From positions 1-23,307 of IMG/VR virus record IMGVR_UViG_3300044613_000939: 23,307 nt of DNA. One strand, given 5' to 3'. Of this stretch, positions 1 through 14,600 are shown one piece after another. The position numbers were made by a program, and so were the translations under genes. Every line of letters starts with the position of its first letter. The stretch's first letter is position 1. The notes below the pieces were generated by a model, which worked only from the letters and a program-made list of their open reading frames with translations, made no database searches and had not been told where the DNA came from. Origin of the DNA: a virus.

Positions 1-2102
1 GACCCACCAACATCACCGGTCAACGTAATCGTCTGGTCGCCAGTGTTGGTGCCCGAGGACGTGCCGCTCAGGTTTGATCCAGTGACCGTGCCCGATGCAG
101 CCACCGAGGTGGGCACGATGGCCCCAAGGACAATCGTGATGGCCGGGGTAGTGGTGTCATTGGCCACCGTACCGCTGACTCCGTTTGCAGTGACCACCGA
201 GGTCGTGGTGACCGTGCCGGCGTTGCTGGTGTACCCACTGGGGTTGGCCGCGGGATAGGCTCCCAACGAAGTAAGGGCTGCAGCAGCGCTGGTGGCTCCT
301 GTGCCGCCATTGGTGAGCGCCAAAGTGCCGCCGAGGGTCAGAGTGCCCGAAGTGGTTATCGGGCCGCCTGTGAAGCTCATGCCCGTGGTCGAGCCATCGG
401 CATTGACCGAGGTCACCGTGCCCGTGCCTGGTGCCGAGGCCGACAGCGTGTTGCCTACCATCGCCAGGTTTGAGCCCAAGATGATTTCCTGAACGCTGTT
501 GCCCGTAGCATCGGAGCCGAGCAAGCGCTTGATAGCAGAAGTCGACTGGATCTTGTCGTAGGTCACCGCGCCATTGGTGATCGTGGTCGCGAAGGAACCT
601 GTCCCGCTGCCTGTCACCGGCCCGGTCAGCGTGATGGTCTGGTCACCGGTGTTTGCTCCCGAGGTGGTCCCGGAGATGTTGGTGCCTGTTACCGTGCCGG
701 TGGAGGCTACCGAGGTGGGCGTGATTGCTCCCAGGCCTAGCGAGATAGCCGGGGTTGTCGTTGAAGTGCCCACCGAGGCTGTGATGCCGTTGGAAGGAGT
801 CACAGTGACGTCGGTCACCGTCCCCCCGGTGCCTGTGGCTGAGAGCACAGTGCCGGCAAACGAGATCCCGGTGCCGAGACTGATCTCCTCCACTGCTCCC
901 GCGCTATTGACCCTACCAAGCAGGCGGTTAGCGGTGACCACCGTGAGGCCCGAGGTCGTGATCGGACCCACTGGGACAGCCCCAAGTGTGGTTCGTTGAT
1001 CTGCAGCACTAGCGTCGTCCAGGATGGCCCGGCCTGCCGCGGTGCAGGTGATCTCTTCGATCAGCCCTGGCCCTGCAGATTGACGCCCCAACAGCCTGTC
1101 AGTGGCGCTCACATACTGCATCTTGTCGTAGGTGACAGCCTGCGGGGTGATCACAGCCGGGATGCGGCCTGTGCCCTGCCCGGTTACGTCACCGGTCTCC
1201 AGGATGTAGTCGCCGGACTCGGTGATCAGGAAGTCGCTGCCCTCGGTCAGCATCCGGTCGCCGCTCAGGATGATCACCTGGTCGCCGGTGTTGACGCCTG
1301 AAAGGTTGGAGCCCGTGACCGTAGCACCGGCAGATATTGCACCTGATGCAGTCACACTGGTGGGAGTGATTGCTCCCAGGGCTAGAGTGATGGCCGGCGT
1401 TGTTGTGGACGTTGCTACGGAGCCCGACACGCCGTTTGCGGTAACCACAGATACGTCCGTAACCGTTCCGCCTCCAGCCGGTCCCGGGGGTCCAGCAGGG
1501 CCTACAGGTCCAGCCGGGCCAGGTGCGCCCTGAATGCCCGATCCACCGGAGGGCTTGGTCATTCCAGTGTCTAGCCTGGTGATCTCGCAGATGGCGTAGA
1601 TTTCATCAATGTTGGCCAGGCTGGTAGGAATACCGAGGTGATTAGTGCCCGATGATTGGATGTAGTACTCCAGCCTGTAGACGTTGTCCTTGTGGGGCTG
1701 TACCCGGAGATTTAGGTCGATGTACGTGTTGGCCTGGTTGGAGACCTCGCTGGACACGCTGTACCCGATGACCACATCGACCACGGGGGGCTCTGCGCTG
1801 GCTGTGACGTCATAGATCCGCATCCTGGTGTGCCCAGTGTGGCGGAAGGCAGCCATAGCCCGGATCTGGTAGGCACCTGCAGCCAGTTTGAAAGTATTGC
1901 TTTCCAACTGAAGGATCAGCCCGTTGGGATCGACGGCAATGGTGTTGAGCGTCCGGGTCGACCAGGTAGTCGCCACACCGTTGCCACCACTGGTGCCCGA
2001 GGTCTTGCTGTCGGTGAGGACAGCGACCTTAAGAGTCAGGCTGTCGACGTCCTTCCTGAGCTTGTTGATCAGGGTGGTGCTGGTCTGTGAATCGTAGCTC
2101 AT
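1..2102 (-). CDS. Large tail fibre with C1q-like domain, collagen-like stretch and long repeats, 3' end cut
   Basis: ATG 2102 overlaps the preceding stop (ATGA), with AAGGG 6 bases upstream. I translated the frame line by line to base 1: 700 codons and no stop, so the C terminus lies beyond the left edge. A short coiled coil (TLINKLRKDVDSLTLKV) is followed by a jelly-roll-like domain, residues about 40-180 (FKLAAGAYQIRAMAAF, RMRIYDV, YIQSSG), resembling the C1q-like domains of phage fibres. Residues 192-209 are six Gly-X-Y triplets (GAPGPAGPVGPAGPPGPA). Then come three copies of a shaft repeat starting near residues 212, 427 and 629, each with 'TPAI.L.LGAI.PTSV' and 'NTGDQ.I.L.G'. It likely mediates adsorption; the receptor-binding tip is not in the window. 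Confidence 0.88.
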   Translation of the reverse strand, partial: MSYDSQTSTTLINKLRKDVDSLTLKVAVLTDSKTSGTSGGNGVATTWSTRTLNTIAVDPNGLILQLESNTFKLAAGAYQIRAMAAFRHTGHTRMRIYDVTASAEPPVVDVVIGYSVSSEVSNQANTYIDLNLRVQPHKDNVYRLEYYIQSSGTNHLGIPTSLANIDEIYAICEITRLDTGMTKPSGGSGIQGAPGPAGPVGPAGPPGPAGGGTVTDVSVVTANGVSGSVATSTTTPAITLALGAITPTSVTASGAISAGATVTGSNLSGVNTGDQVIILSGDRMLTEGSDFLITESGDYILETGDVTGQGTGRIPAVITPQAVTYDKMQYVSATDRLLGRQSAGPGLIEEITCTAAGRAILDDASAADQRTTLGAVPVGPITTSGLTVVTANRLLGRVNSAGAVEEISLGTGISFAGTVLSATGTGGTVTDVTVTPSNGITASVGTSTTTPAISLGLGAITPTSVASTGTVTGTNISGTTSGANTGDQTITLTGPVTGSGTGSFATTITNGAVTYDKIQSTSAIKRLLGSDATGNSVQEIILGSNLAMVGNTLSASAPGTGTVTSVNADGSTTGMSFTGGPITTSGTLTLGGTLALTNGGTGATSAAAALTSLGAYPAANPSGYTSNAGTVTTTSVVTANGVSGTVANDTTTPAITIVLGAIVPTSVAASGTVTGSNLSGTSSGTNTGDQTITLTGDVGG
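12..1475 (-). repeat. Three-copy shaft repeat in the large fibre
   Basis: Copies begin near residues 212, 427 and 629 of the fibre (starting near minus-strand positions 1469, 824 and 218). Each begins G-T-V-T, runs through NG(V/I)..(S/T)V.(T)STTTPAI and PTSV.A(S)G, and ends TNTGDQTITLTGD or a close variant. Copies 1 and 2 are followed by a second unit with AVTYDK(M/I)Q..SA..RLLG. Period is about 215 and 202 residues; the third copy reaches the window edge, so more may follow. Confidence 0.85.
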
Positions 2103-5100
2103 CGGTTGCCCTTACGTCGGAGTATTCGTTGCGCCTCGTCAAGGCTGCTGGCGATGCCTATAAGGCTGCCTGCGGGGCCGTAGAGGCGAAGGCTGCCCTT
2201 GGCCTTGCCTGGGAGGGCACGGTAGCCACCAGGGAACGAGTAGGCCCCGGGCATGGCTGAGTCGGGCTGGGGCATATAGCGTATGTCCTCCGAGGTTGCC
2301 TTGAACCGCTGCGAGAGGGGGATGACGTTGCCGGCGTTGTCCTTGGTGATCGCATCAACCAGTTTGACCTGGCTTGAATCTGCGACGTAGTAGATACGCT
2401 CGTTGCCGGGTAGTTCGACAATGCCAGCCTTGGTAGGTTGATTTTCCGCACTGAACCCAGACATCACTTGCCCAAGCGTTTGCGGTGTAGCTTGGAATAC
2501 GGGAGCACCTTCAGGAATGCGCAGGAAGACCCGCTTCACTTCGGGCGCGGCCTTTGTCGAGGTCATCACCTTGGCCGCCTCAATGAAGTTGTCGGACAAC
2601 CTTTTGTTGATAGGCTTCAGGTCTTTAGCGTAACCACGCAGCTCCTTAATGAACTCAGGGACGTCGTCAATGGAACCCCAGTCGAACTCGGGCAGCATTC
2701 CATCATCGACCGAGGAGTATCCCTTAGAGGTGAAGTATTCCTGCGCTGCTATATCCTCGTCGAACATACGCATCGCGTCGTTGGCAACGCGCAGGCCGGC
2801 GTCTAATCGCACAGCCTCGTCACCAAGGCGCTTGGAATAGTTTTCAGCAGCCTTCTTGTCAGTGGTAAACGAGAACGCTTGGCGGGACACACCCGAGGTC
2901 TCGCCGCGCATCCGCTTGTCGAACACGTTGAACCCACCCGTAGGTGTCCCGTGGTAAACAGGACCGATGGTGTACCCTGCCGCCTTCGCCGCCTCATCGA
3001 CCATCCGCTGGGCGGTGGCTGTGTCGCCCTTCTTCACCGCGGAGAGGTAGTCGGTGTCCGAGGCAGGCATATTCCGAATGCCGATGGCCGCCGCAATCTT
3101 CTTGGAGGGCACCGCCCACAGGTTCTCTGGGTCGTAATTTTCGATCTCGGTGACCTTCTTCAGGCGGATGGGATCCTCCATGCCGTCGTAGGGAGCCCCG
3201 TAGATCCGATAGCCCTTCTCAAACAGATCCACAGCCTCGCCGTAATCCTTGACGCTACGGCCCGAGGCCATGTCCGAGGCAGGCATGAAGCGCTGCTCGC
3301 CGCTTACTTCTTGCCGAGGCGCTTGGCCTCCATTCGCTGCGTCCAGGACATTGCTCCCTCCATCCCCCCCGATTGCACGAACTCGTCCTGTGCCTCCTGC
3401 ATAGACGTCAGACGGTCTTCCAACCACTGACTGATAAAGGGAGGAGGCTGCGGAGGCATAGTCTGACTCTCCTGATTTGCTGCGATAGTTGAGTTTTTCA
3501 TAGAGTTCCTTTTCAAGATACCACAGCACGGCCTGCAGGTCAGCGTTCTCCAGCTCAATGCCTTTGGAACGCAAGTCCTTCTGCACTTCTGCGATACGCT
3601 CACGAATCCACCGTCGATGAGTCCCGTCAACTGGAGCCTCGACCAAGGGATTCAAGCCCTTTTTTAGGGCATTGGCAAATTTTCTTGTTTCCTCAAGCGC
3701 GGATTGACCGGACTCGGCTGACTGTTTTGCCGTGTCTCGCAGAGATTTCTTGGCGAACCTGCCGGATATGGTCGTTGCAGAGCCGTCGATAGATGTCCCC
3801 TTTAAGTCACCACGCTTGATACCAAGCAATTCAAACTCAGACGGGGTAAGTCTAGCGACTGCATCGCGCAAGTTGTTGCGCATTTCACGCACCTTGGATC
3901 CGGCTAGTGGCTCCACCTGAGTACCTGTCAGGCGTCCGATGGTGCGCATAAACCACCGGTCCATGGTCACCGATGAGAAGTCTCCGTACAGGTTGTTGAA
4001 AAACGAACCCAGCTTAGGTCCGAGCACCACCGCAAACGGAACAACCTCGTCGGTCAATTCAGAGGAACCAACACCTTGCGCTTCCTTCTTGGTCCATCCA
4101 AAGGTGTCAATTAACGCCTGACGAACCTCTTTGACGGTGCCTTTGCGCGTGAAGAAGTCCTTGGTCTTTTCCCACCCAATGGAGTTTACCATCTCATTGA
4201 ACATCTTTAGGTTGCCCTTAATGTTCTCGATGCGGTCACCGGATACAAAGTCGCCGGAGATTTTGCCGGTGTTTTTCCAGTTGGAGTACTCCTTCCAACT
4301 CTGTTGGAACTGTGGTCCCACCTTGTTGCCATCTGATGTGGAGGCAAGGATGACCTTGAAGATGAAGTCGTTTTCTGGCTTTGCGAGATCTGGATCCAGA
4401 TCCCGTATGACGTCCATGGTCAGCTTGATGTTCTCGTCGTACCATCCCTTGGCCTCGGGGTGCAGCTCAACAGCACGCTGAATCTCTTGCACCAGTGCAT
4501 TGGATAGCCTGGCGTTGTCCTGAGGGTTGGGTTTGCGATACTCAATCGCCTTTCCAAAGCGGTCTTGGAATGCGTTGGCAATATCCAAGACCTTTGGCCG
4601 TTTAGAAAGGTTGAGCTCCAGCTCGTTGTCCAAGACAGCAAGACCCGCACTTTTGCCCTCGGGCATGAACCTTACATCATCCGCTTGTCGTACCGCCCCG
4701 CCTTCGCCTTGGCCTTCTTGGCCACGCTCAACGCGATTGCGACCGCCTGCTTCTGTGGCTTGCCGGCCTTCATCTCCCGCTTGACGTTGCTGCTGACGGA
4801 CTTCTGGCTGTAGCCTTGTTTGAGTGGCATAATCTTTTTCTGCTTTGAGTTTGGCTTGTTCCTGAGTGTCGAAGATCCCAACGGTTGATCCATCGGGGCC
4901 GTACAGGCGGAACTTTCCGTTCTTCGACAAGATTCGATAGCCGCCATTCTCATCGGTGCTGACCCTGGTCTCACCAATGGCCTCTGCAGGCATGAAGTTG
5001 AGCTGAGTGCGGCGGTAGCTCGACTGCTCGCCCATGTCGCCTGTCCAGGGGATCTTGGCCTTAGTGGAGTCGGCATTCTGGATGCGCTCAAGACGCAGAT

Positions 5101-8083
5101 CCTGATAGACCGATCCTCCCTTACGGTTGGCGACGTAGCCGGCAGTCGGGAAGTTGACCATGACGTCCCCCTTCTTGGGAACTGCACCCATGATCTCGTT
5201 GAACATATTGCGCTTCTTAGCGCCCTCGATGCCTCCACCGAGCGCCTCAGCGGAAGGCACAGCACCGGTCTCAGCAATGTTCTTCAGGTACACGTCACGC
5301 ATCGTGGACATGGCCTGGTCGTAGTTGTTGAAGAGGCTCTTGTAGGCCGGCTTGCTCAGTGCCTTGTACATCCTGGCCTGCACCTTGCCCCAGTCGACCA
5401 CCTTGACGTTGACGCCGCCCTTGCTGTTGATCGAGATGCCGTAGGGCAGGAACAGCTTCTGGGACTCTCCAAACACGCCGGATCGCCCGGTGGATCCGTA
5501 GACCTTCCAGTAGCTGCCTTCCATGAGCGTGCCATCCCGGATTGCGGTGGCGATGTCGATCAATGTCCTGGAAGAGGATGGCCCGAAGATACCGCTCTTC
5601 GATACTGCATCGGCCTCGGCCAGGCTAAGTCTTCCTTCAATGACCGGGTTTCCGTAGGCATCCATGCCCGAGATGCTGGTGCGTTCAGCCTGAGGAACAG
5701 ACTCGACGACACGCATCGTGCGGTTGGCTATGTCAGCAGTCCGGGCTGCAATCTCCGCCTTAGACAACGGCCTGACGATGCTGCCATCCGGGGCAGTCAT
5801 AAACAGGTCCGAGTCGCCCCGGGGCATGATGACCGCATTCTGCTGCGCCTGGGTCATCTTGTTGATGTCGACCCGTTGCTCGGTTGGCTCGTAGCCTTCC
5901 TTCGGAGTCACCAGGTTCTTGATGGCATCCTCCATCCAGTCGAGCTTGATGCGCCGTCCGTTGGCGTCGTAGAAGGTACGGGCAACAGGGTCGAAACCAG
6001 CCTGCAATGCACGCCTAGTGAACCGTTCCGAAACAGCCTCCTTGGCGTTGTTCAGCGCCATCTCAATGAAGGAAGGAATGCGACCCGGAAGCATCGTCTT
6101 CGGGTCTTTGCCTTTGAGCATTTCCTGCGTGTAGTACGCGGCAAACTCATCGGTGATGCGTTTAAGAGACTCAACCTTTTGAGCCCGTTGTTGAGCAGGA
6201 TCAAAAGCATCCCGGAGCTCAGTGCGGATGCGGTCAGCAACCACGCGCCCACCAGCCGATTGTAGTTTGTCGGCGTACTTGTTAGCGAAGTCGGTGAATT
6301 GCCTCTGGAAGTTGGGATCAGCAGAGGCAGTGTCGATGGCTTTAGCCCCAAGCTGACTCACCATGTCCTGCGTGATGCGTGCGTGCAGGATCTCATGCGG
6401 GAGTGCTTCGGGGCTGGCCTTGTCGACATTGATCAGGATCGTCGGCTTTCCGCTCTTGATGTTGTCGGGACCGATTGCAACACCGGCATAATTCACGTTC
6501 TGCAGTCCAGCAGGGACCGTGTCTGCATCGGTGTGGAAGATGACATCGACTCCAGCGCCTTCAGCACCTGCAACCTCGGACAGCGCCTTAGTGAGCTGCT
6601 TGTTGTTGAGGCGTCCGTACAGGGTGGCGCGTGCCTCGGAATCCTTGATGGTCGCAGTCTGCTCGCCGGTACGGTCAATGTAGGTGAACTGCACGTCGGT
6701 GGGACGAGTGTTGAGATCATCCACCGCGGTCTGTCGGACACGCCCACCATTGAAGGCGTTGGCTTGAACAGCCTTAGCGAGCGTGAACCCACCGTCAAAA
6801 ACGCCAAAGCCAGCACCGCTGCCAATAGCCGCGGCAACAGCATCCCCTTCTTCTCCGGTCAATGCAGCGAGGGCACCGCCGGCAACGCCAGCACCTGCCA
6901 TCGGCAAAAGAATTGTTGCAGCTCCCCTTACCGGAGTCTCAAGGCCGCTCCTGGCGAGAGCGGTGCCTAAGGCCCGAGCCCTAGATGATGCGCCTTCAGC
7001 CGCGGCAATACGCTCGCCAGCCCCCAGAAGGCCGCGCTGGGTCGCCGTAAGGCTTGGACCACCGGATACAGTTCCAGCTTCTCCAACGGTCTCCATGGCC
7101 CCTCCTAGGCCCTTGGTTGCAGTGATTGTCTTAGCAACAGTTCCTAGACCAGGAACATTCATGGTGATCGGAAGGCCAGCAGCTTCACCCAAGGTGATTC
7201 CTGTGGTTCCTTTGGCGATACCTTCCTGCACCGCTTGGCCCATTTGCTCGGACCCGGTGATGCCAGCAGTGATTCTGCCTGCTATGTTTTCGGGGCCGCG
7301 GCCTAGATTAGAGATGCGTTCGCCAGCGCGTTGGAGAATCTGACCTGCCCGAGGGATTAGCGGGATAGCACGCTGCGCCAATGCAGACGCCAGCTTTCCG
7401 CCGCCGGCAAAAGCAATGGATGACGGGTCAGCAAGGAACCCACCGACATCCAAGCCCTCCTGGCTGATTGCTTCCTGGGGGATGCCATAGGCCTGCAAGA
7501 CATCCTGAGAGGCAGGAACACGCTGGTCTCCTGGTGCATTGGCACGGGCCAACTGCCGCTTGATCTCGGCAGCAGCAAGGAAGGCCTCGTACTTGTCGTC
7601 GTCGTTGCGGAGCTTTCCGGTAATGTCCGACAGCTTGTTCAGCGCGGTGTCAATCAGTCCGCGGCCCATGTTCTCGGCTTTGAGCCTGGATTGGACTGCG
7701 ATTTCTGCAGCGGTTCCACCGGCAAGCTGCATCGGTGTGACGCCTTCAGGAGGGTCCATGTACTGCCCAATGGCCTCACCTAGCTTGTAAGGCATTGAGG
7801 CAATGTCCTCCACCGTTTGGACGGCAGCGGTGCCAATGGTTTCCAGTGGCTTCTCGCCAAGCAGTGGCTTGGTCTTGGAGACCTTCAGGTAGTCGAGAAA
7901 CTCTTGCTTGCTGGGAGTGTAGTCGGTCTGCGCTCCTTGAAACTGCAGCACCTTGTTATAAGAGTCCTCGGGCGTTGGATCGACTTCGATTCCTCCCTGC
8001 ACAAAACCGCCTTGCGCCATCTGAGGCGAGGCCTGTTGCTGTGGTTCTTCATCGACAACAATTCCGCCTTCAACGAATGGCAT
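2099..8083 (-). CDS. Giant virion polyvalent protein: zincin-like plus ADP-ribosyltransferase-like domains
   Basis: The product is 1994 residues. Visible parts in order: N-terminal duplicated FVxGGIxVD motif (residues 3-11 and 27-35); a helical, Gly/Ala-rich region with a hydrophobic stretch near 385-420; a zincin-like domain with HEILH at 563-567 and Glu646 (DEFAAYY) as a possible third metal ligand; a domain of unknown type with FLPYGISINSKGGVNVKVVD; a first RLYGPxGS module around Tyr1061; a helical domain between about 1140 and 1600 with GPKLGSFFNNLYGDF; and a C-terminal ART-like domain with YHGT at 1710-1713, FSFTTD at 1737-1742 and GNVIPLSQRF near the end. A second RLYGPxGS module (Tyr1968) closes the protein. 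Large polyvalent proteins of this build (Iyer and colleagues) are packaged and injected to act on the host. The stop overlaps the next ATG (ATGA). Confidence 0.82.
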   Translation of the reverse strand: MPFVEGGIVVDEEPQQQASPQMAQGGFVQGGIEVDPTPEDSYNKVLQFQGAQTDYTPSKQEFLDYLKVSKTKPLLGEKPLETIGTAAVQTVEDIASMPYKLGEAIGQYMDPPEGVTPMQLAGGTAAEIAVQSRLKAENMGRGLIDTALNKLSDITGKLRNDDDKYEAFLAAAEIKRQLARANAPGDQRVPASQDVLQAYGIPQEAISQEGLDVGGFLADPSSIAFAGGGKLASALAQRAIPLIPRAGQILQRAGERISNLGRGPENIAGRITAGITGSEQMGQAVQEGIAKGTTGITLGEAAGLPITMNVPGLGTVAKTITATKGLGGAMETVGEAGTVSGGPSLTATQRGLLGAGERIAAAEGASSRARALGTALARSGLETPVRGAATILLPMAGAGVAGGALAALTGEEGDAVAAAIGSGAGFGVFDGGFTLAKAVQANAFNGGRVRQTAVDDLNTRPTDVQFTYIDRTGEQTATIKDSEARATLYGRLNNKQLTKALSEVAGAEGAGVDVIFHTDADTVPAGLQNVNYAGVAIGPDNIKSGKPTILINVDKASPEALPHEILHARITQDMVSQLGAKAIDTASADPNFQRQFTDFANKYADKLQSAGGRVVADRIRTELRDAFDPAQQRAQKVESLKRITDEFAAYYTQEMLKGKDPKTMLPGRIPSFIEMALNNAKEAVSERFTRRALQAGFDPVARTFYDANGRRIKLDWMEDAIKNLVTPKEGYEPTEQRVDINKMTQAQQNAVIMPRGDSDLFMTAPDGSIVRPLSKAEIAARTADIANRTMRVVESVPQAERTSISGMDAYGNPVIEGRLSLAEADAVSKSGIFGPSSSRTLIDIATAIRDGTLMEGSYWKVYGSTGRSGVFGESQKLFLPYGISINSKGGVNVKVVDWGKVQARMYKALSKPAYKSLFNNYDQAMSTMRDVYLKNIAETGAVPSAEALGGGIEGAKKRNMFNEIMGAVPKKGDVMVNFPTAGYVANRKGGSVYQDLRLERIQNADSTKAKIPWTGDMGEQSSYRRTQLNFMPAEAIGETRVSTDENGGYRILSKNGKFRLYGPDGSTVGIFDTQEQAKLKAEKDYATQTRLQPEVRQQQRQAGDEGRQATEAGGRNRVERGQEGQGEGGAVRQADDVRFMPEGKSAGLAVLDNELELNLSKRPKVLDIANAFQDRFGKAIEYRKPNPQDNARLSNALVQEIQRAVELHPEAKGWYDENIKLTMDVIRDLDPDLAKPENDFIFKVILASTSDGNKVGPQFQQSWKEYSNWKNTGKISGDFVSGDRIENIKGNLKMFNEMVNSIGWEKTKDFFTRKGTVKEVRQALIDTFGWTKKEAQGVGSSELTDEVVPFAVVLGPKLGSFFNNLYGDFSSVTMDRWFMRTIGRLTGTQVEPLAGSKVREMRNNLRDAVARLTPSEFELLGIKRGDLKGTSIDGSATTISGRFAKKSLRDTAKQSAESGQSALEETRKFANALKKGLNPLVEAPVDGTHRRWIRERIAEVQKDLRSKGIELENADLQAVLWYLEKELYEKLNYRSKSGESDYASAASSLYQSVVGRPSDVYAGGTGRVRAIGGDGGSNVLDAANGGQAPRQEVSGEQRFMPASDMASGRSVKDYGEAVDLFEKGYRIYGAPYDGMEDPIRLKKVTEIENYDPENLWAVPSKKIAAAIGIRNMPASDTDYLSAVKKGDTATAQRMVDEAAKAAGYTIGPVYHGTPTGGFNVFDKRMRGETSGVSRQAFSFTTDKKAAENYSKRLGDEAVRLDAGLRVANDAMRMFDEDIAAQEYFTSKGYSSVDDGMLPEFDWGSIDDVPEFIKELRGYAKDLKPINKRLSDNFIEAAKVMTSTKAAPEVKRVFLRIPEGAPVFQATPQTLGQVMSGFSAENQPTKAGIVELPGNERIYYVADSSQVKLVDAITKDNAGNVIPLSQRFKATSEDIRYMPQPDSAMPGAYSFPGGYRALPGKAKGSLRLYGPAGSLIGIASSLDEAQRILRRKGNR

Positions 8084-8086
8084 AGG

Positions 8087-9487
8087 TCAGTCTTGAAATT
8101 CTTGGTATTTTCCGGTGGCAGGATTGAAAACAAGGCCGCGCTTAATGCCTTGAGCACGCATATCTTCGGGCGATTGGAAACGCTGCATAGATTCCGCAGC
8201 GCTTTGAGCAGACATTGACCTCCACGCCTTCAATGAGCTCTCAGGAAGGATAAGCATTTCAGGCACTCCACGATATTTCGCCTGACTTACAGTATCACTA
8301 ATCGTCGACTCAACAGCTTTGAGTGAACCACGCACGATTGAATCAGCAGACTTTTTAATATCTCTCCGGATTTCAGGAGTCAGCTTGTTTCCGGTGGTAT
8401 AGCTGTTGTAGATGTTTTGAATTTGAGTAGGAAGACCTCCAGCGTTTCCTACGGTTTGAAATTCGTTGTCACGGACAACGCTAGTGGGATCTAGCGTCTT
8501 CATGTACTTGAAGATCAGCGCAATATCATCGGAAGGGGTTGTTCCCAGTTCCTTTATCTCCATCAGATTCTTGAACTGTTCTCCAACTGCCTTGATTTGC
8601 GGGTTCTTATTAATATCGCTAAGTGTATCGTTTGCCCATTTCTGCTGGGCTTCAGGAAGTTTATCAATTTCGGCCTGAATCTTTGGTTGAGCTTTAATTG
8701 GTGCGCCGGCTGCCTTCCCTGAAATCATTGGCTGAACGTAGTCAGTGCCTGGGACAGGCATAGAGGTGACCGTAGCCGGCAATCCGTATTCCACTTTGGT
8801 CCCCTCGGGTCCGATAGTCGCACCGAGCGCAGTCATGTTTGCGGGAATAGACTGCCCCATCCTGCGCATCATTGGGATCAACGACTGCATCTGGGTCGGA
8901 GTCAGTTTGTCGCCGTACTTTCCAAGCATCTCCTGCGTCACGTTGGAGTACGGAACGGAAGGAGCCTGACCGGGCTGCATCGACATGACGTCGGAAAGCG
9001 CCTGCGTGAAATACGGAGCAGCAGCAGCTTCGCGTTGAGCAGTGCCCAACTGCAACGCTCCCATAGCCAACTGCTGCTGTGCGGCTGCAGACTGGATGTC
9101 CTGCATCTCCCGAGCCTTCGCCTTGTCAGCCCGATCTAGGAAGAACTCGGCATTCAGTAGCGTAGCCTTCTTCTGCGGTATGGACATCGACGAGAATTTC
9201 TCAATGTCTCCGAGCAGCTTCGACTCGGGGGTGTTCTTGTCCATGATGTTGCCGCTCTGAGCAACGGTTTGGAGATACGGAGCCAGCGACTCAAGGCGTG
9301 ACGTGAGGAACTGGTTCTCCTCTTTGTTCTGCCCATACCGCTGCAGCGACTCGCCGATGGCACTGCCTATGGCTTGAGCGCCTTGGCCGATATTTCTACC
9401 AGCCTGAGCGTATGCCTCGATAAAACCAGAAGGGACGGCCTGTGGACCGCCCCCCTGGTAGCCTGCGGAGTATCCGTATTGTGCCAT
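8087..9487 (-). CDS. Ejection-type internal virion protein
   Basis: The protein has 466 residues, starting at ATG 9487, 12 bases after the preceding stop. After a Gly/Tyr-rich N terminus (YGYSAGYQGGGPQAVPSGF) come amphipathic helices (FIEAYAQAGRNIGQGAQAIG), an Ala/Gln-rich segment near residues 128-160, and a C-terminal helical domain. Residues 321-345 (DIALIFKYMKTLDPTSVVRD then NEFQT) match a motif repeatedly found in large phage virion and polyvalent proteins ('aL...yMK.lDPtSVVR..Ef'). The 3' half of the gene is more A/T-rich than the 5' half. Order (fibre, small GNAT-like, two helical proteins, giant protein) parallels the internal core genes of podoviruses. No peptidoglycan hydrolase motif was seen. 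Confidence 0.7.
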   Translation of the reverse strand: MAQYGYSAGYQGGGPQAVPSGFIEAYAQAGRNIGQGAQAIGSAIGESLQRYGQNKEENQFLTSRLESLAPYLQTVAQSGNIMDKNTPESKLLGDIEKFSSMSIPQKKATLLNAEFFLDRADKAKAREMQDIQSAAAQQQLAMGALQLGTAQREAAAAPYFTQALSDVMSMQPGQAPSVPYSNVTQEMLGKYGDKLTPTQMQSLIPMMRRMGQSIPANMTALGATIGPEGTKVEYGLPATVTSMPVPGTDYVQPMISGKAAGAPIKAQPKIQAEIDKLPEAQQKWANDTLSDINKNPQIKAVGEQFKNLMEIKELGTTPSDDIALIFKYMKTLDPTSVVRDNEFQTVGNAGGLPTQIQNIYNSYTTGNKLTPEIRRDIKKSADSIVRGSLKAVESTISDTVSQAKYRGVPEMLILPESSLKAWRSMSAQSAAESMQRFQSPEDMRAQGIKRGLVFNPATGKYQEFQD

Positions 9488-9499
9488 AATTTTAAGAAA

Positions 9500-10330
9500 T
9501 TAACCGCCCCCACGACCGCGACCAGCCAAAGCGCCACCGCCGAGAGATCCGAGGCCGCCCATAATGCCTCCAATGATTCCAGACGTAGCCGATGCACCGG
9601 CAGCATTAGCCGCCATCTGGGACTGCTGGTTGCCGCCGTAGATGTTGCCGGCGTAAGCGCTCTCGGGCTGGAACAACATTCCCGGGTTAAATCCCTGGGC
9701 CTGGCCTAGGAAGCCTTGAGATCCGGCAAAGGCCTGGGACGGGCGTCCAAGCACCTGCTGGAACACGTCACCGTACACACCCTGGCCGGCTTGCAATGCG
9801 CCCATAGCCTGCTGCTGGCGCTGCTGTTGAAGGCCTGCACCTGCCATCTGGGAGCGTAGCGCCTCCTGGAATGCAGCATTGGGACTCTGAGCTATACCAC
9901 GTGCGGAAGATGCCATACGGGACTGCTGCTGCGCCATGCGCTGCTGCTCCGGGGTCAACTGGCTGCCGGCCAATAGACCGGAGGTAGCGTTGGCAGCCAG
10001 GATGTCAGCAATCCGAGTCTGGTCCGGGGAAAATCCTTGAATGGCAGCACGCGCCTGGGGACCGAGGCGGGAGATGTCGGCAATGTCACCGGCACGCGAG
10101 GCTGCACGGCTGGCGGCCTCGGTACGGCCCATAGCGGGGGCAATCTGCTGTTCGTACAGGCGCAGCAGCTCAGGCGTAGCCTGGTTGAGCAGGTCCATCT
10201 GCAGCGCCTGATACTTCGGGGCAAATTGAGCCTCGGCAGCATACCTTTCCGGTGCCAGTTGGAGCTGGGTACGAAGCGTATCCGCGGTCTCTTGGGCGTA
10301 GTTGCGTGGTGCTGGTGCGTCGACTGTCAT
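9500..10330 (-). CDS. Ejection-type internal virion protein with Gly-rich membrane-like tail
   Basis: The protein has 276 residues and is very rich in Ala, Gln and Gly. The N-terminal section is helical, with YAQETADTLRTQLQLAPERY and PKYQALQMDLLNQATPELLR, a pattern common in phage proteins encoded next to ejection proteins. A Gln-rich middle (LQQQRQQQAMGALQAGQGVY) follows. The C terminus (SGIIGGIMGGLGSLGGGALA, then GRGRGGG) is a Gly-zipper-like hydrophobic helix with a basic end, suited to membrane insertion. Together with the two following genes it probably forms the set of proteins delivered from the virion to make a DNA channel through the cell envelope. That role is inferred from order and composition. 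Confidence 0.7.
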   Translation of the reverse strand: MTVDAPAPRNYAQETADTLRTQLQLAPERYAAEAQFAPKYQALQMDLLNQATPELLRLYEQQIAPAMGRTEAASRAASRAGDIADISRLGPQARAAIQGFSPDQTRIADILAANATSGLLAGSQLTPEQQRMAQQQSRMASSARGIAQSPNAAFQEALRSQMAGAGLQQQRQQQAMGALQAGQGVYGDVFQQVLGRPSQAFAGSQGFLGQAQGFNPGMLFQPESAYAGNIYGGNQQSQMAANAAGASATSGIIGGIMGGLGSLGGGALAGRGRGGG

Positions 10331-10731
10331 AAATGCTTGGATGCTGCCCTATAGATCGGCATCGAGCCTTTCTTGTAGGTGGTTAGTTTGCCGTTGCGAT
10401 AACCGATAGCCGGGAGAATTGCCGACTCCGGTGCGTCGTGAAAGAACTTAGCCGCCACTGCCATTGCGAATAGTGCGCAATCGGCGGCGAACTGGTGCCA
10501 GTACCAATGGTCGCCATTGGGATCGGACTTCTGCCAGGTCCACTCTTTAGGCTCCGGCCCCATCTGCCTCCAGCCTACCAGCACAGCGACAACGTGCCCG
10601 TCCTGCAGGGCCACCTTGAGCGTGCCCTGCTCGGCATGGAACATCACATAGTCCTCCACAGCCTCACGGGTCCAGCCTCGAAAGCTGTCCGGGAGCTTGT
10701 GCAATAGGTAGTCTGTGACGAGGGGGATCAA
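10327..10731 (-). CDS. Small GNAT-like virion-associated protein, TTG start
   Basis: The frame starts at TTG 10731, overlapping the fibre stop as TTGA, with only a weak AAGAG upstream; the next Met is at residue 30 and would remove a well-formed helix. The product is 134 residues: an N-terminal helix, a beta hairpin LKVALQDGHVVAVLVGWRQM, a DHWYWHQFAADCALFAMAVA helix, a short FHDAPESAILPAIGYRNGKL and a terminal KKGSMPIYRAA. The hairpin and the 'YR.GkL..y..g....YR' ending recall GNAT-like small proteins that podoviruses carry beside their ejection genes (T7 gp13 fills this position). No acetyl-CoA binding loop is clear, so catalysis is doubtful. Stop overlaps the next ATG (ATGA). Confidence 0.6.
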   Translation of the reverse strand: MIPLVTDYLLHKLPDSFRGWTREAVEDYVMFHAEQGTLKVALQDGHVVAVLVGWRQMGPEPKEWTWQKSDPNGDHWYWHQFAADCALFAMAVAAKFFHDAPESAILPAIGYRNGKLTTYKKGSMPIYRAASKHL

Positions 10732-11657
10732 GGCAGGATCTCTTGGAGGATTACTTGGGAGGTGGCGCGGGTATAACCAGAGCTATCAGTGTTGTTTGAT
10801 GTTCTATTTAAATAAAAAACATTTGCAGCACTTCCGTATACCTTAACCCTGTAAGACACGGATGCTGTTGATGTAGGTGAATCAACGAATATAATAGGGA
10901 CTATTGACTGAGTTGAGTTTGTATCCCCATCACTTGGTTGAACCCTGATTCCGTTTATTCTACTTCCGGCTGATGTCGGAATCCCAAGTTCTTGAACTGC
11001 AGCTCCAATAACACGCTCAAGAATAAACCCACATTGAATAGCAACTTCGCATGATATATTGAATTGAACCAATACCTTTGAGGTGGCTGTTTGAGGAGTA
11101 ATTGATGTGGTTAACTGCGTTATTTCAAGTGCGCCATTTCTAGTTGTTGGAAGCGTGTAAGTTACAACATCAGTGTAGTTTGTAAAAGAAACAGCCGGCC
11201 TCAACGCATTCAGCGTACTCCCAGTCGTAGTAAGGTTAGATCCAACGCTTAGGTTGGTCTCAATGTTTCCGACTGCCGTGGTAAATCTTCCCAGTATCTT
11301 TGGGGTGCTTCCATCAATTTGCAGCAGCTTGTCGGCAGTGATCGTGTTAGTGGCTATTTTAGCCGCAGTAACAGCCCCATCCTTAATATTGACGGTCGTT
11401 GCCGTCAGCACTAAGTCGGTCGTCGTAAGCGCCACTGGGCTGGCACTCGATCCTGCACCATTACCAACTATTGTCTGATCGTTCTGAGCGTATAACGAAG
11501 GAAGCGGTACGGACTGAACTCCGAGCGTTATCGACCCGCCATCTACCGTACCGGTGACGTCGACACTGGGCGTGCCTAGCAGGTTGAGAGTGGACGCATC
11601 CAGCGTGGTGGAGCTGGTGACGGTGGTTCCTGGCGTGACGGTGACAAAGAGTGGCAT
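10728..11657 (-). CDS. Tail fibre protein
   Basis: The protein has 309 residues. The N terminus, TVTPGTTVTSSTTLDASTLN followed by LLGTPSVDVTGTV, is a recurrent phage pattern that probably docks the fibre to the tail. A shaft section follows, containing IKDGAVTAAKIATNTITADK and a LLQIDGSTPKILGRFT unit also present in the large fibre at the left edge. The C-terminal domain, from about residue 165, contains SKVLVQFNISCEVA, GFILERVIGAAVQELG, a DSPTSTASVSYRVKVYG segment at residues 259-275, and ends SQVILQEILP. This DSP-T...YrVk pattern is typical of the receptor-side globular domain of environmental phage fibres. The C-terminal coding part is clearly more A/T-rich than the N-terminal part. It starts 3 bases after the nozzle stop. 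Confidence 0.78.
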   Translation of the reverse strand: MPLFVTVTPGTTVTSSTTLDASTLNLLGTPSVDVTGTVDGGSITLGVQSVPLPSLYAQNDQTIVGNGAGSSASPVALTTTDLVLTATTVNIKDGAVTAAKIATNTITADKLLQIDGSTPKILGRFTTAVGNIETNLSVGSNLTTTGSTLNALRPAVSFTNYTDVVTYTLPTTRNGALEITQLTTSITPQTATSKVLVQFNISCEVAIQCGFILERVIGAAVQELGIPTSAGSRINGIRVQPSDGDTNSTQSIVPIIFVDSPTSTASVSYRVKVYGSAANVFYLNRTSNNTDSSGYTRATSQVILQEILP

Positions 11658-11660
11658 AGG

Positions 11661-14600
11661 TTAGACGTCGGTTTTTCCGTAAAGTCGGAAAGGGATTGCG
11701 ATGGATTTGACGCTGTAAATGTTCAACGCACCGGTGGTAGTGGTAACCACAGGCTGCATGGTAATGGAGTGGCGGCGCAAGCGAGCCTTCTGCGAGAACG
11801 ATTGTACAAGCCCCGCTTGGAATCCGGCAGTGTTACATCGAATACCCGGCAATGTAGAGTAATCCTCGCGATATGGGTCGAGGAAGTTGTTCCCGGAGTT
11901 GTTGGTGACGTAGGTTCCGCTGCCATAAATGTAGTAGGCCGTGCGGCTCTTGGTCTCGTTAGTGGCAATCGGGTAGGACTCATTCACACCATCAAAGTTG
12001 GCAGTGATGGAATAAGTCGGATTCCATGAGGCAAACTCAAACTGCAGGTTGGTCCACTGCTTGTGGTCGACGTTGTTATCACCTGCATGGCCCCGGAAGG
12101 AGACCGAGGTGGCAATCTGTTGGATCGTGCCTACACGATTGCGGTCCTGCAGTGCCTGGTAGTCGAAGTTGTGGATGAACCCGCTGTTGTCAGCCCAGCA
12201 GAGCGTGTCTGTGCCAGCGACCACCAGACGAGTGTAATACCGTGGAACAAGCAGCGAGCCTTCCCAGTATCCTTCCCACGCTTGGTTCAGGAAGTTGTAG
12301 ACCAGGGTGCGTTGGTTTGTCCCGTCGCCACCTTCCACCGGGACGCTCAGGATGTAGCGGTTGTTGTAGTAGGCCCCACATGACTTTCTCCAGTTAGCTT
12401 GGTCGATCTCCTCTATGACATCCTGAATCGGATCTGACAACGGCAGCACCACCGACTGGCTGATGCCAAACTCGGTCTGCTTGAGACTGATTACACCGCG
12501 CTGACTAAGGAAGACGATGTCTGACCCGGTGGACGCAATAGACGCCTGGCTGATGCATCCAAACTCCCGGGTAACCTCGGTGAGCCGGGTAGTCGACAGG
12601 TCGCCGTAGAGGTTCTCCACAGCAAGAATGCTGCGTTCCTTGAAGACTATCAGCGTGGTCGTGTTGAACGGGTACAGGGCCACCACAGCGTCATTGGCAC
12701 CGGTGTTCAATTTGAACTCATTCAGGATCGGGCTGTAGTGCAACGGATCCAGCACGTCAGACACTGCCAGGTAGTCGGGACCGTAGAGCAGCAGCAGGCG
12801 GTTTTGAAAGTATAAGCCTTCACGGCCAGCCGGGACGTTTGCACCGGAGGCAGAGGACTTCTTGATCGTGCCAGTAACGGTGTCTGACGTAATTTCTTTC
12901 AGCGTCGAAGGATTTGAAGCTGAAACCGTAATTGCTGTGTAGTTAGCCCCAGGATTTACAATGGTAACAGACGTGACCTTGCCGTCTTCAATCGCTGCTG
13001 TGGCGCTTGCATTTGTTCCAGCGCCAGCAGTAAGCGTAAGTGTCGGTGCGGTAAGATAGCCTGCACCTTGATTGACAATGGTAAGCGCCGTCAGACCGTC
13101 TGTAGTCGGAACGATGATCGTGATTGTTGCTAGTGATGGAGAGTATCCAGTGCCACCATTAACAATGGTATACCCAGTCACCTTTCCGTTTGCAACGGTC
13201 AGCGTAATGTTGGCTGCTGATCCACCGCCACCGTTTGCATTGACCGTAGCCGTGGCGCTGAGATAGCCCGCCCCTGCATTTGTTATGTTTACCGCGGTGA
13301 TCGTTCCAGATCCATTGATTGTCAGCGTAGCGGTCGCCGTAGTGCGTCCTATAGTGGCTGTTATGTTTGGGAAAGCCGCCGTGTTGAGAGAATCAAGCTC
13401 CTCGGAAGATCCGCTGAACAGCTTCAGCGAGTTCTTGTCAGTAGGGAAGACGTAGTAGATTCCGTTCGCAACACCTGCAGATACATTGCTGATGGTCACC
13501 TGATCACCAGCAACGAAAGGATGGTTCGGGACCGTGATGGTGTCGTCCGTATTTGATGACGCTACAATAGCATTGACCGATGCAATCCGGTTGAAGCCGT
13601 TATCAAGCGCCGATACAGGCACACCAGCATTGTAGGAGGCCTCCATTATCAACGGTAAGCCATCGTTGTAGAAGTCGCTGACGCCTTGCGTTACGTCGTA
13701 CCCAGTCGTGTTGTTCGACAGTTCAAAGTAGTACCGGTTGGCACTAGTGAGACCGGACGTAAGTTCAACCGGAGATGATCCAGTTTGAGCGGCTCCCTGG
13801 GATAAATGTAACGTGCAGACTCCTCCGCCCTTCACGTTTACGAACATCGCGAAGCCTTGTCCGGCTGTGGTCGATGTTACAGTCCACAGGTTTGGAGCCA
13901 CACCAACCTGAACAACCTCAATCCGATCACCGGACTCCATGTCTGGCGGGACGTTGAGAGTCACCGTATCGTTGGCAGTATTGACGTCTGCGCCGGTGAA
14001 ATAGTACCGGGCATTGCCGGGTCGCAGCATGACCACCGCATTGGTAGCCTGCATCAGACGCACCGGGCTGTAGATGTCGTGCCCGTTCATCGGTATCTCC
14101 AGGTCCGACTGGTTGGGTCGTACCAGATACATCCGGCCCTGACCGCCATCTTCTGTTGCCAATGTACGGGCCTCGTTGGTGGCCACAACTAGGGCTTGGT
14201 AGCCGGTGTCAGGATCGCGGAAAGGCAGCACACCGAGGATGTCGGTGAAGGCATCTGTGGAGCTGTAGAATTGGACGTTTTTGTTTACCGGCGGCCCAGC
14301 AAACGAGATTGCCGCCGTCGACATTGAGACGTTGGTGTTTGCGTCATCCAAAATGCATCTGGTTCCATTAGGGAACACCAATGAGTTTATGCTTTGATCG
14401 GAGCAAACGATGGATCCGGCAGGGATAGTGGTTCCGCTCACTCCCACCGCTGTTGCAGAGCTTGAGGTGACCGTGACCGTCCTAGTTGCAGTAGTCCATT
14501 TACCGCCCCACTTAGGCTGCACAATGCCCCACCTGTTTGTGATGAGCTGATTCTGGAAGATCCGGTTGATCGCCTGGCTGACGTACTGCGCCGGCACCTG

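Follow-up and report, generated by a model that had tools for sequence, protein, structure and literature searches.

The C-terminal half of the large phage protein P0001 is, across 68 non-redundant relatives (the family set of ORFs after redundancy removal), a row of exchangeable cassettes, which are nearly always separated by the tetrapeptide R-[F/Y/W]-M-P. The cassette repertoire includes about ten ART cores, a PBECR5 nuclease, a DUF7178-like domain and others. We propose, with a probability of roughly 0.45, that these tokens are processing sites of a zincin-like peptidase embedded in the same protein, and that the effectors would be released around the time of injection.

Locus and relatives

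The window analyzed here is the whole of a 23.3-kb virus record, and its features are listed in Table 1. P0001 is encoded on the minus strand, with the reading frame running from window position 8083 to 2099; the plus strand across 2099-8083 is stop-rich. In transcription order, the gene is preceded by portal-like, scaffold and major capsid genes, a gene for a 1009-aa protein with weak similarity to amidase and internal-virion-protein, and small genes. The 466-aa gene, the polyvalent gene and the fibre gene recur in this order across the family, and the position between structural genes and tail fibre holds across it as well. P0001 is presumably located in the virion. A 43.9-kb contig (L013/G399) encodes a protein 100% identical to P0001 and carries, beyond the content of the window, genes for a terminase, a DnaB helicase, a primosomal protein, an exonuclease and a methyltransferase. 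The phage behind P0001 is probably a freshwater phage, with a freshwater host suspected.

Table 1. Coordinates of the features discussed, in window positions
Feature	Position	Strand	Remark
Polyvalent protein gene P0001	2099..8083	-	ATG start, 1994 aa; viral relatives found
Upstream neighbour gene, 466 aa, phrog_13634	8087..9487	-	position conserved
Downstream DUF5907-repeat protein, probable tail fibre	3..2102	-	980 aa in L013; clipped by window end
Zincin-like metallopeptidase core, residues ~489-660	6104..6619	-	invariant catalytic residues and element order
HEILH, residues 563-567	6383..6397	-	sole HExxH in P0001
Glu646 (EFAA), presumed third zinc ligand	6146..6148	-	invariant in 31 sequences
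Border token NFMP, residues 1029-1032	4988..4999	-	RWMP in many relatives
Border token RFMP, residues 1138-1141	4661..4672	-	linker, pLDDT ~30
Cassette M1, residues 1140-1599, all-helical, DUF7178-like	3287..4666	-	weak DUF7178 match; model
Border token RFMP, residues 1598-1601	3281..3292	-	motif
Degenerate token RNMP, residues 1670-1673	3065..3076	-	RFMP in relatives with bare ART cassette
ART-like cassette, residues 1672-1936	2276..3070	-	header SDTDYLSAV..GDT..AQRMVDEAAKAAGY, tail GNVIPLSQRFKATSEDIRY, both constant
His1711 of YHGT (ART strand 1)	2951..2953	-	motif and alignment
Border token RYMP, residues 1935-1938	2270..2281	-	motif
Constant C-terminal tail, residues 1937-1994, RLYGPxGSxIGI domain	2102..2275	-	used as scan query

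A scan of viral contigs with the P0001 sequence returned 38 related loci, 23 of them long relatives, and 76 were returned when the constant C-terminal tail of 58 aa served as the query. The scan of genome contigs gave one locus; of 398 genomes from the phylum to which the Pantoea hit belongs, that one genome alone contained ART-PolyVal. Only three isolated or named phages matched P0001, solely via residues 1146-1576, and Limnohabitans phage DC33 was among them. The DC33 record (L040, PQ492659.1) is 39 kb long and encodes a 3125-aa polyvalent-type protein, yet it is filed under Inoviridae, a taxonomy line that looks wrong. In another locus (L249), the zincin part (1363-6588) and the FMP-token cassette part (6556-12387) lie in two overlapping reading frames, which may reflect a split gene, a frameshift or a sequencing error.

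P0001 falls into an established class, the phage polyvalent proteins, in which at least two disparate conflict-related domains occur in one chain: it combines zincin-like, DUF7178-like and ART-like domains, and its relatives also carry PBECR5 and other ART-PolyVal modules. The fold matches to P0001 models in BFVD included uncultured-phage proteins named 'Large polyvalent protein associated' or 'ART-PolyVal-like', with E values down to 9.5e-20.

Exchangeable cassettes and their borders

To define modules, we cut the family proteins at [x][FY]MP. This yielded an N-core and a C-tail common to the family and about 20 module types that recur in many different orders, including three ART-PolyVal kinds, the PBECR5 nuclease (E=9e-29) and the DUF7178-like M1, together with GNAT-like and ASCH-like modules recognized by eye. 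At least 16 different modules followed the N-core, and 14 distinct left neighbours were seen for the ART-type cluster. The initial annotation had suggested that the order of modules may be undescribed, which undersold the finding: the order is not fixed, because cassettes swap between RFMP tokens. Since the modules had been cut with the motif itself, an independent test of the borders was needed. In whole-protein BLAST alignments, 63% of the alignment ends beyond residue 1000 fell within 20 aa of a token, compared with 16% for random positions.

The M1 cassette was modelled with pLDDT mostly between 80 and 98 over the folded part, and its match to DUF7178 was weak (E=0.019 in P0001 and E=0.001 in L002). 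It contains the near-invariant motif GxK[LI]GxF..NL......VTMDRWFMRT and is present in many phage polyvalent proteins, including L025-L040. We also considered M1 as an HhH-GPD DNA glycosylase, based on the resemblance of GxK...VTMD.W..R and a weak glycosylase match in L236 (E=0.008); this evidence was suggestive only, and the assignment was not adopted. A small RLYGPxGSxxGIxxxxxxA domain occurs in two related copies, at residues ~1047-1078 (window 4800-4970) and, in the C-tail, at residues ~1952-1985, and a DUF2188 protein was among the weak viral fold matches to the model containing the first copy.

We then counted all tripeptides in the family without reference to the motif. FMP was the most enriched (80 distinct contexts versus 1.9 expected); RFM, YMP and RYM came next, and WMP and RWM ranked just below them. 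The residue at position -1, which had not been fixed in the search, was Arg in 113 of 126 distinct contexts, and the flanks varied. The polyvalent ORFs, totalling 112,030 aa, contained R[FWY]MP 190 times; it was absent from the other ORFs (>=200 aa) on the same contigs, which total 217,302 aa, a figure that takes in antisense and other non-coding frames and so overstates the real proteome. In members whose zincin lies at the usual position, the first 900 residues were free of tokens, and in the model of residues 445-1150 the tokens sit in linkers with pLDDT below 50. At a few borders the token is not clean (RNMP, DMMP, DLMP). The codons of the token varied (AGG TTC ATG CCG, CGC TTC ATG CCT, CGC TAT ATG CCC and 14 others, giving 17 different 12-mers), indicating that the protein sequence is what is kept and that there is no fixed DNA seam. 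In L185, two tokens lie just 9 residues apart (residues 2029-2045, RFMPASDDIRFMP), as if a cassette had been lost and its borders left.

Zincin-like domain

The initial annotation had described the protein as combining a zincin-like and an ART-like domain, and all the motifs it named (HEILH, Glu646, YHGT, FSFTTD and GNVIPLSQRF) lie at the residues it gave in the minus-strand gene, a strand that it had left unspecified. H563, the general-base E564, H567 and E646 were invariant across 31 family sequences with 21-90% identity to P0001, and each of the 51 family ORFs above 1300 aa in length had HExxH. At least two versions of the domain, HEILH and HE[LIM]FH, have diverged strongly from each other. 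In the AlphaFold model, which covers residues 445-1150, HExxH lies within one helix (558-569) and Glu646 within a later one (641-656), and the model elements H50-65, E69-73, E91-93, E104-108, H114-125 and H197-212 follow the zincin order at pLDDT ~60-85.

Neither Pfam nor NCBIfam gave a curated peptidase family match to P0001. Foldseek searches of the PDB with the zincin model found nothing under E=0.001, with MATCAP and vasohibin chains appearing only at E about 1-3, and PDB sequence searches with P0001 and with profiles of both halves found nothing significant. The catalytic residues and the order of elements, rather than the fold, thus support a zincin-like domain, which probably binds zinc. 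The helix pair that had been expected is present in the model, at moderate pLDDT. Ahead of the zincin, the residues around 385-440 (window 6760-6930) form a Gly/Ala-rich hydrophobic stretch (ATILLPMAGAGVAGGALAALTG), possibly a membrane segment.

ART-like cassette

In P0001, YHGT starts at residue 1710, FSFTTD at 1737 and GNVIPLSQRF at 1918. Pfam ART-PolyVal (PF18760) matched residues 1709-1794 with E=2.6e-5 and 25.4 bits, below the cutoff of 31.2; the same cassette in L008 reached E=7e-7 and 30.5 bits, also under the cutoff, and other family cassettes passed it (L020, E=4e-13; L021, E=1e-19). Iyer et al. described a HYD clade of ARTs with H and D residues (PMC5512222). Alignment with the other cassettes showed that P0001 has His1711 and Asp1902 (VADSSQVK) of this clade, and Ser1738 in the Tyr column, so the triad of His in strand 1, Tyr in strand 2 and Asp in strand 5 is incomplete in P0001. 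The cassette resembles PF18760 in YHGT, in FTxD of the second strand and in the Asp before SxQVK, and differs from it in the score below the curated cutoff, in Ser1738 for Tyr and in a large insert in the core. The ART region was modelled with low confidence (pLDDT about 40-80), and Foldseek against the PDB found nothing under E=0.001. The ART-like assignment of residues 1672-1936 is thus partly supported: the profile match below the cutoff, the stronger matches of other family cassettes and the His and Asp residues count for it, whereas Ser1738 takes the place of the Tyr and the fold is modelled at low confidence. The ART of P0001 would act on host proteins.

The initial annotation had taken GNVIPLSQRF as the end of the ART pattern. 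This is not the case, because the segment is part of a constant cassette tail, DxITKDxxGNVIPLSQRFKATSEDIR[FY], which is common to about ten different ART cores and lies outside the catalytic core. The ART-type cores found between the constant header and tail in different phages are marked by YHGT, YHNT, YRGS, WHGG, WHGT, FHGA, FHGS, YHGG, VHLT or FWRS. Several of them have no usual His, so their substrate or even their activity may differ.

Tokens in other phages

The tail of the ART cassette, GNVIPLSxRF...DIR[FY], is common among other phages, and MP follows it in 40 of 76 distinct contexts. These 40 MP carriers contained 107 R[FY]MP compared with 0.3 expected by shuffling, whereas 28 other carriers, in which the tail mostly continues with S or Q, contained 1 compared with 0.2 expected. 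The same tail thus ends as DIR[FY]MP in the P0001 family and as DIR[FY]S- or Q-type elsewhere; the tail ending and the token counts track together, indicating that a cassette ends with the token of its carrier protein.

FMP tokens were also found outside the family (L085, L109, L236, L241, L254, L267, L272 and L278). Each of these proteins has an upstream HExxH zincin-like domain, and ART-PolyVal, PBECR5 and DUF7178 matches again lie between the tokens. In the distant M1-bearing proteins L025-L040, no token enrichment was found. Across 72 diverse ART-PolyVal proteins, the excess of own tokens was weak overall (195 versus 151 expected), so a universal token rule is not claimed; it was strong in some of them, such as L109 (FMP six times) and L056/L071 (RYSP). 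The ART-PolyVal proteins L051-L130 end in (N)PDIR[FY]xx, with SR, SL, SV, SP, QR, LP or MP after the aromatic residue, and some repeat the same ending elsewhere within the protein. In the zincin tree, token type was clustered (10 changes versus 25.6 in shuffles), and FMP occurred with several distant zincins rather than in one clade. We did not use this co-inheritance of token and zincin as support, as it is confounded by phage relatedness, which explains at least part of the clustering.

Discussion

We propose that the conserved N-terminal part of about 1000 aa, with its zincin-like peptidase, carries and may process a variable effector row, which in P0001 would consist of the all-helical DUF7178-like module and the ART-like module, followed by the constant C-tail. 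The tokens in the flexible linkers would be recognition sites of the zincin, which could cut in cis or between copies. Cutting during or after entry with the DNA would release each effector into the host, and cassettes could be swapped freely between phages if they bear the token. A constant peptidase carrier, serial variable effectors and the same linker motif at each border, with none in the N-core or in the rest of the proteome examined, fit a self-processing polyprotein. As read from the sequences, the modules swap, the tokens are confined to the part of the polyvalent protein after the N-core, and the catalytic residues are invariant; zinc binding, cleavage at the token, virion packaging, injection and an ART activity on host proteins are inferred. 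The constant aromatic residue of the token would suit an S1' pocket. Among about 20 proteins scanned from the 44-kb contig L013, no other peptidase was recognized except an intramolecular S74 chaperone. Tentatively, RFMP may be a cleavage code, with lineage-specific tetrapeptides (R-aromatic-M-P here, R-aromatic-S/Q-x in other phages), such that a new effector need only bring the token. Against processing, related zincins in L029 and L034 lie in proteins without tokens, so the peptidase can exist independently of them; the missing PDB fold match, the few borders without a clean token the pairing of FMP with several distant zincins and the uncleaved packaging of the MPTase-bearing N4 virion RNAP (PMC5512222) also count against it.

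Tokens that recur along flexible linkers, each cassette bringing its own, could instead dock the protein to a virion partner (portal, core or ejection proteins), serve packaging or ejection, or help to thread the chain through the tail, with the zincin a separate effector or acting elsewhere. The location of the gene among structural genes and next to the tail fibre fits such a role, as does the N4 virion RNAP, also MPTase-bearing, which is packaged uncleaved and whose MPTase-containing region is needed for encapsidation (PMC5512222). However, the 900-aa N-core, where a fixed packaging signal would be expected, is token-free, there is one token per cassette border although a single docking site would suffice, and no partner is known; we consider this explanation unlikely. 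It is improbable that the token is just a tolerated linker or recombination seam, with borders converging on RFMP because exchange occurs there and without recognition by any protein. Homology breakpoints do cluster at tokens and some tokens are degenerate (RNMP, DMMP), but the 17 different 12-mers keep no fixed DNA seam, unrelated modules keep aromatic-M-P at their borders, and one and the same ART tail switches from S- or Q-type to MP with its carrier.

We give still less credence to a reading along the lines of the initial annotation, in which the zincin and the ART are separate effectors within a single injected protein that stays intact, and attack or protect host targets unprocessed. Both ARTs and MPTases have been proposed as polyvalent-protein effectors (PMC5512222), and the ART core is highly diversified, as arms-race effectors should be; this leaves the token pattern unexplained, and the zincin is the constant part while the effectors vary. 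Processing at the tokens by the embedded zincin remains our preferred reading.

That the MPTase processes polyvalent proteins was a prediction of Iyer et al. 2017 (PMC5512222). The polyvalent proteins of that paper are, like P0001, very large and multidomain, with an MPTase hub and ART, PBECR or GNAT-like modules in varying order, and injection and peptidase processing were proposed for them; the P0001 family differs in its fixed tetrapeptide at nearly every cassette border, and we found no border motif or cleavage code in the sections of the paper searched. DdrB and DarA of phage P1 are antirestriction proteins packaged in the head and proteolytically processed, DdrB having a C-terminal MPTase (PMC5512222), and DarA is cut by the prohead protease Pro (PMC12810830). 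Unlike for P0001, the relevant sections of these sources describe no repeated border token or swappable effector row for them. The border token and its carrier dependence appear to be undescribed, as we found no description in the literature searched, mostly outside subscription journals. Polymorphic toxins such as Rhs effectors have a conserved carrier and exchangeable C-terminal toxin modules at a conserved border; in contrast, P0001 is encoded within a cluster of phage structural genes and strings together several cassettes, every one of which has a token of its own.

These findings make the RFMP token a candidate cutting or docking signal for such presumably injected phage proteins, and the 2017 proposal of processing by the protein's own zincin now has a concrete candidate site to mutate and map. 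If the token is a cleavage code, it would predict the ends of released effectors in many phages, resolve giant proteins that lack annotation into separable enzymes (ARTs, nucleases and others), and offer a straightforward means of searching for new anti-host and counter-defence modules.
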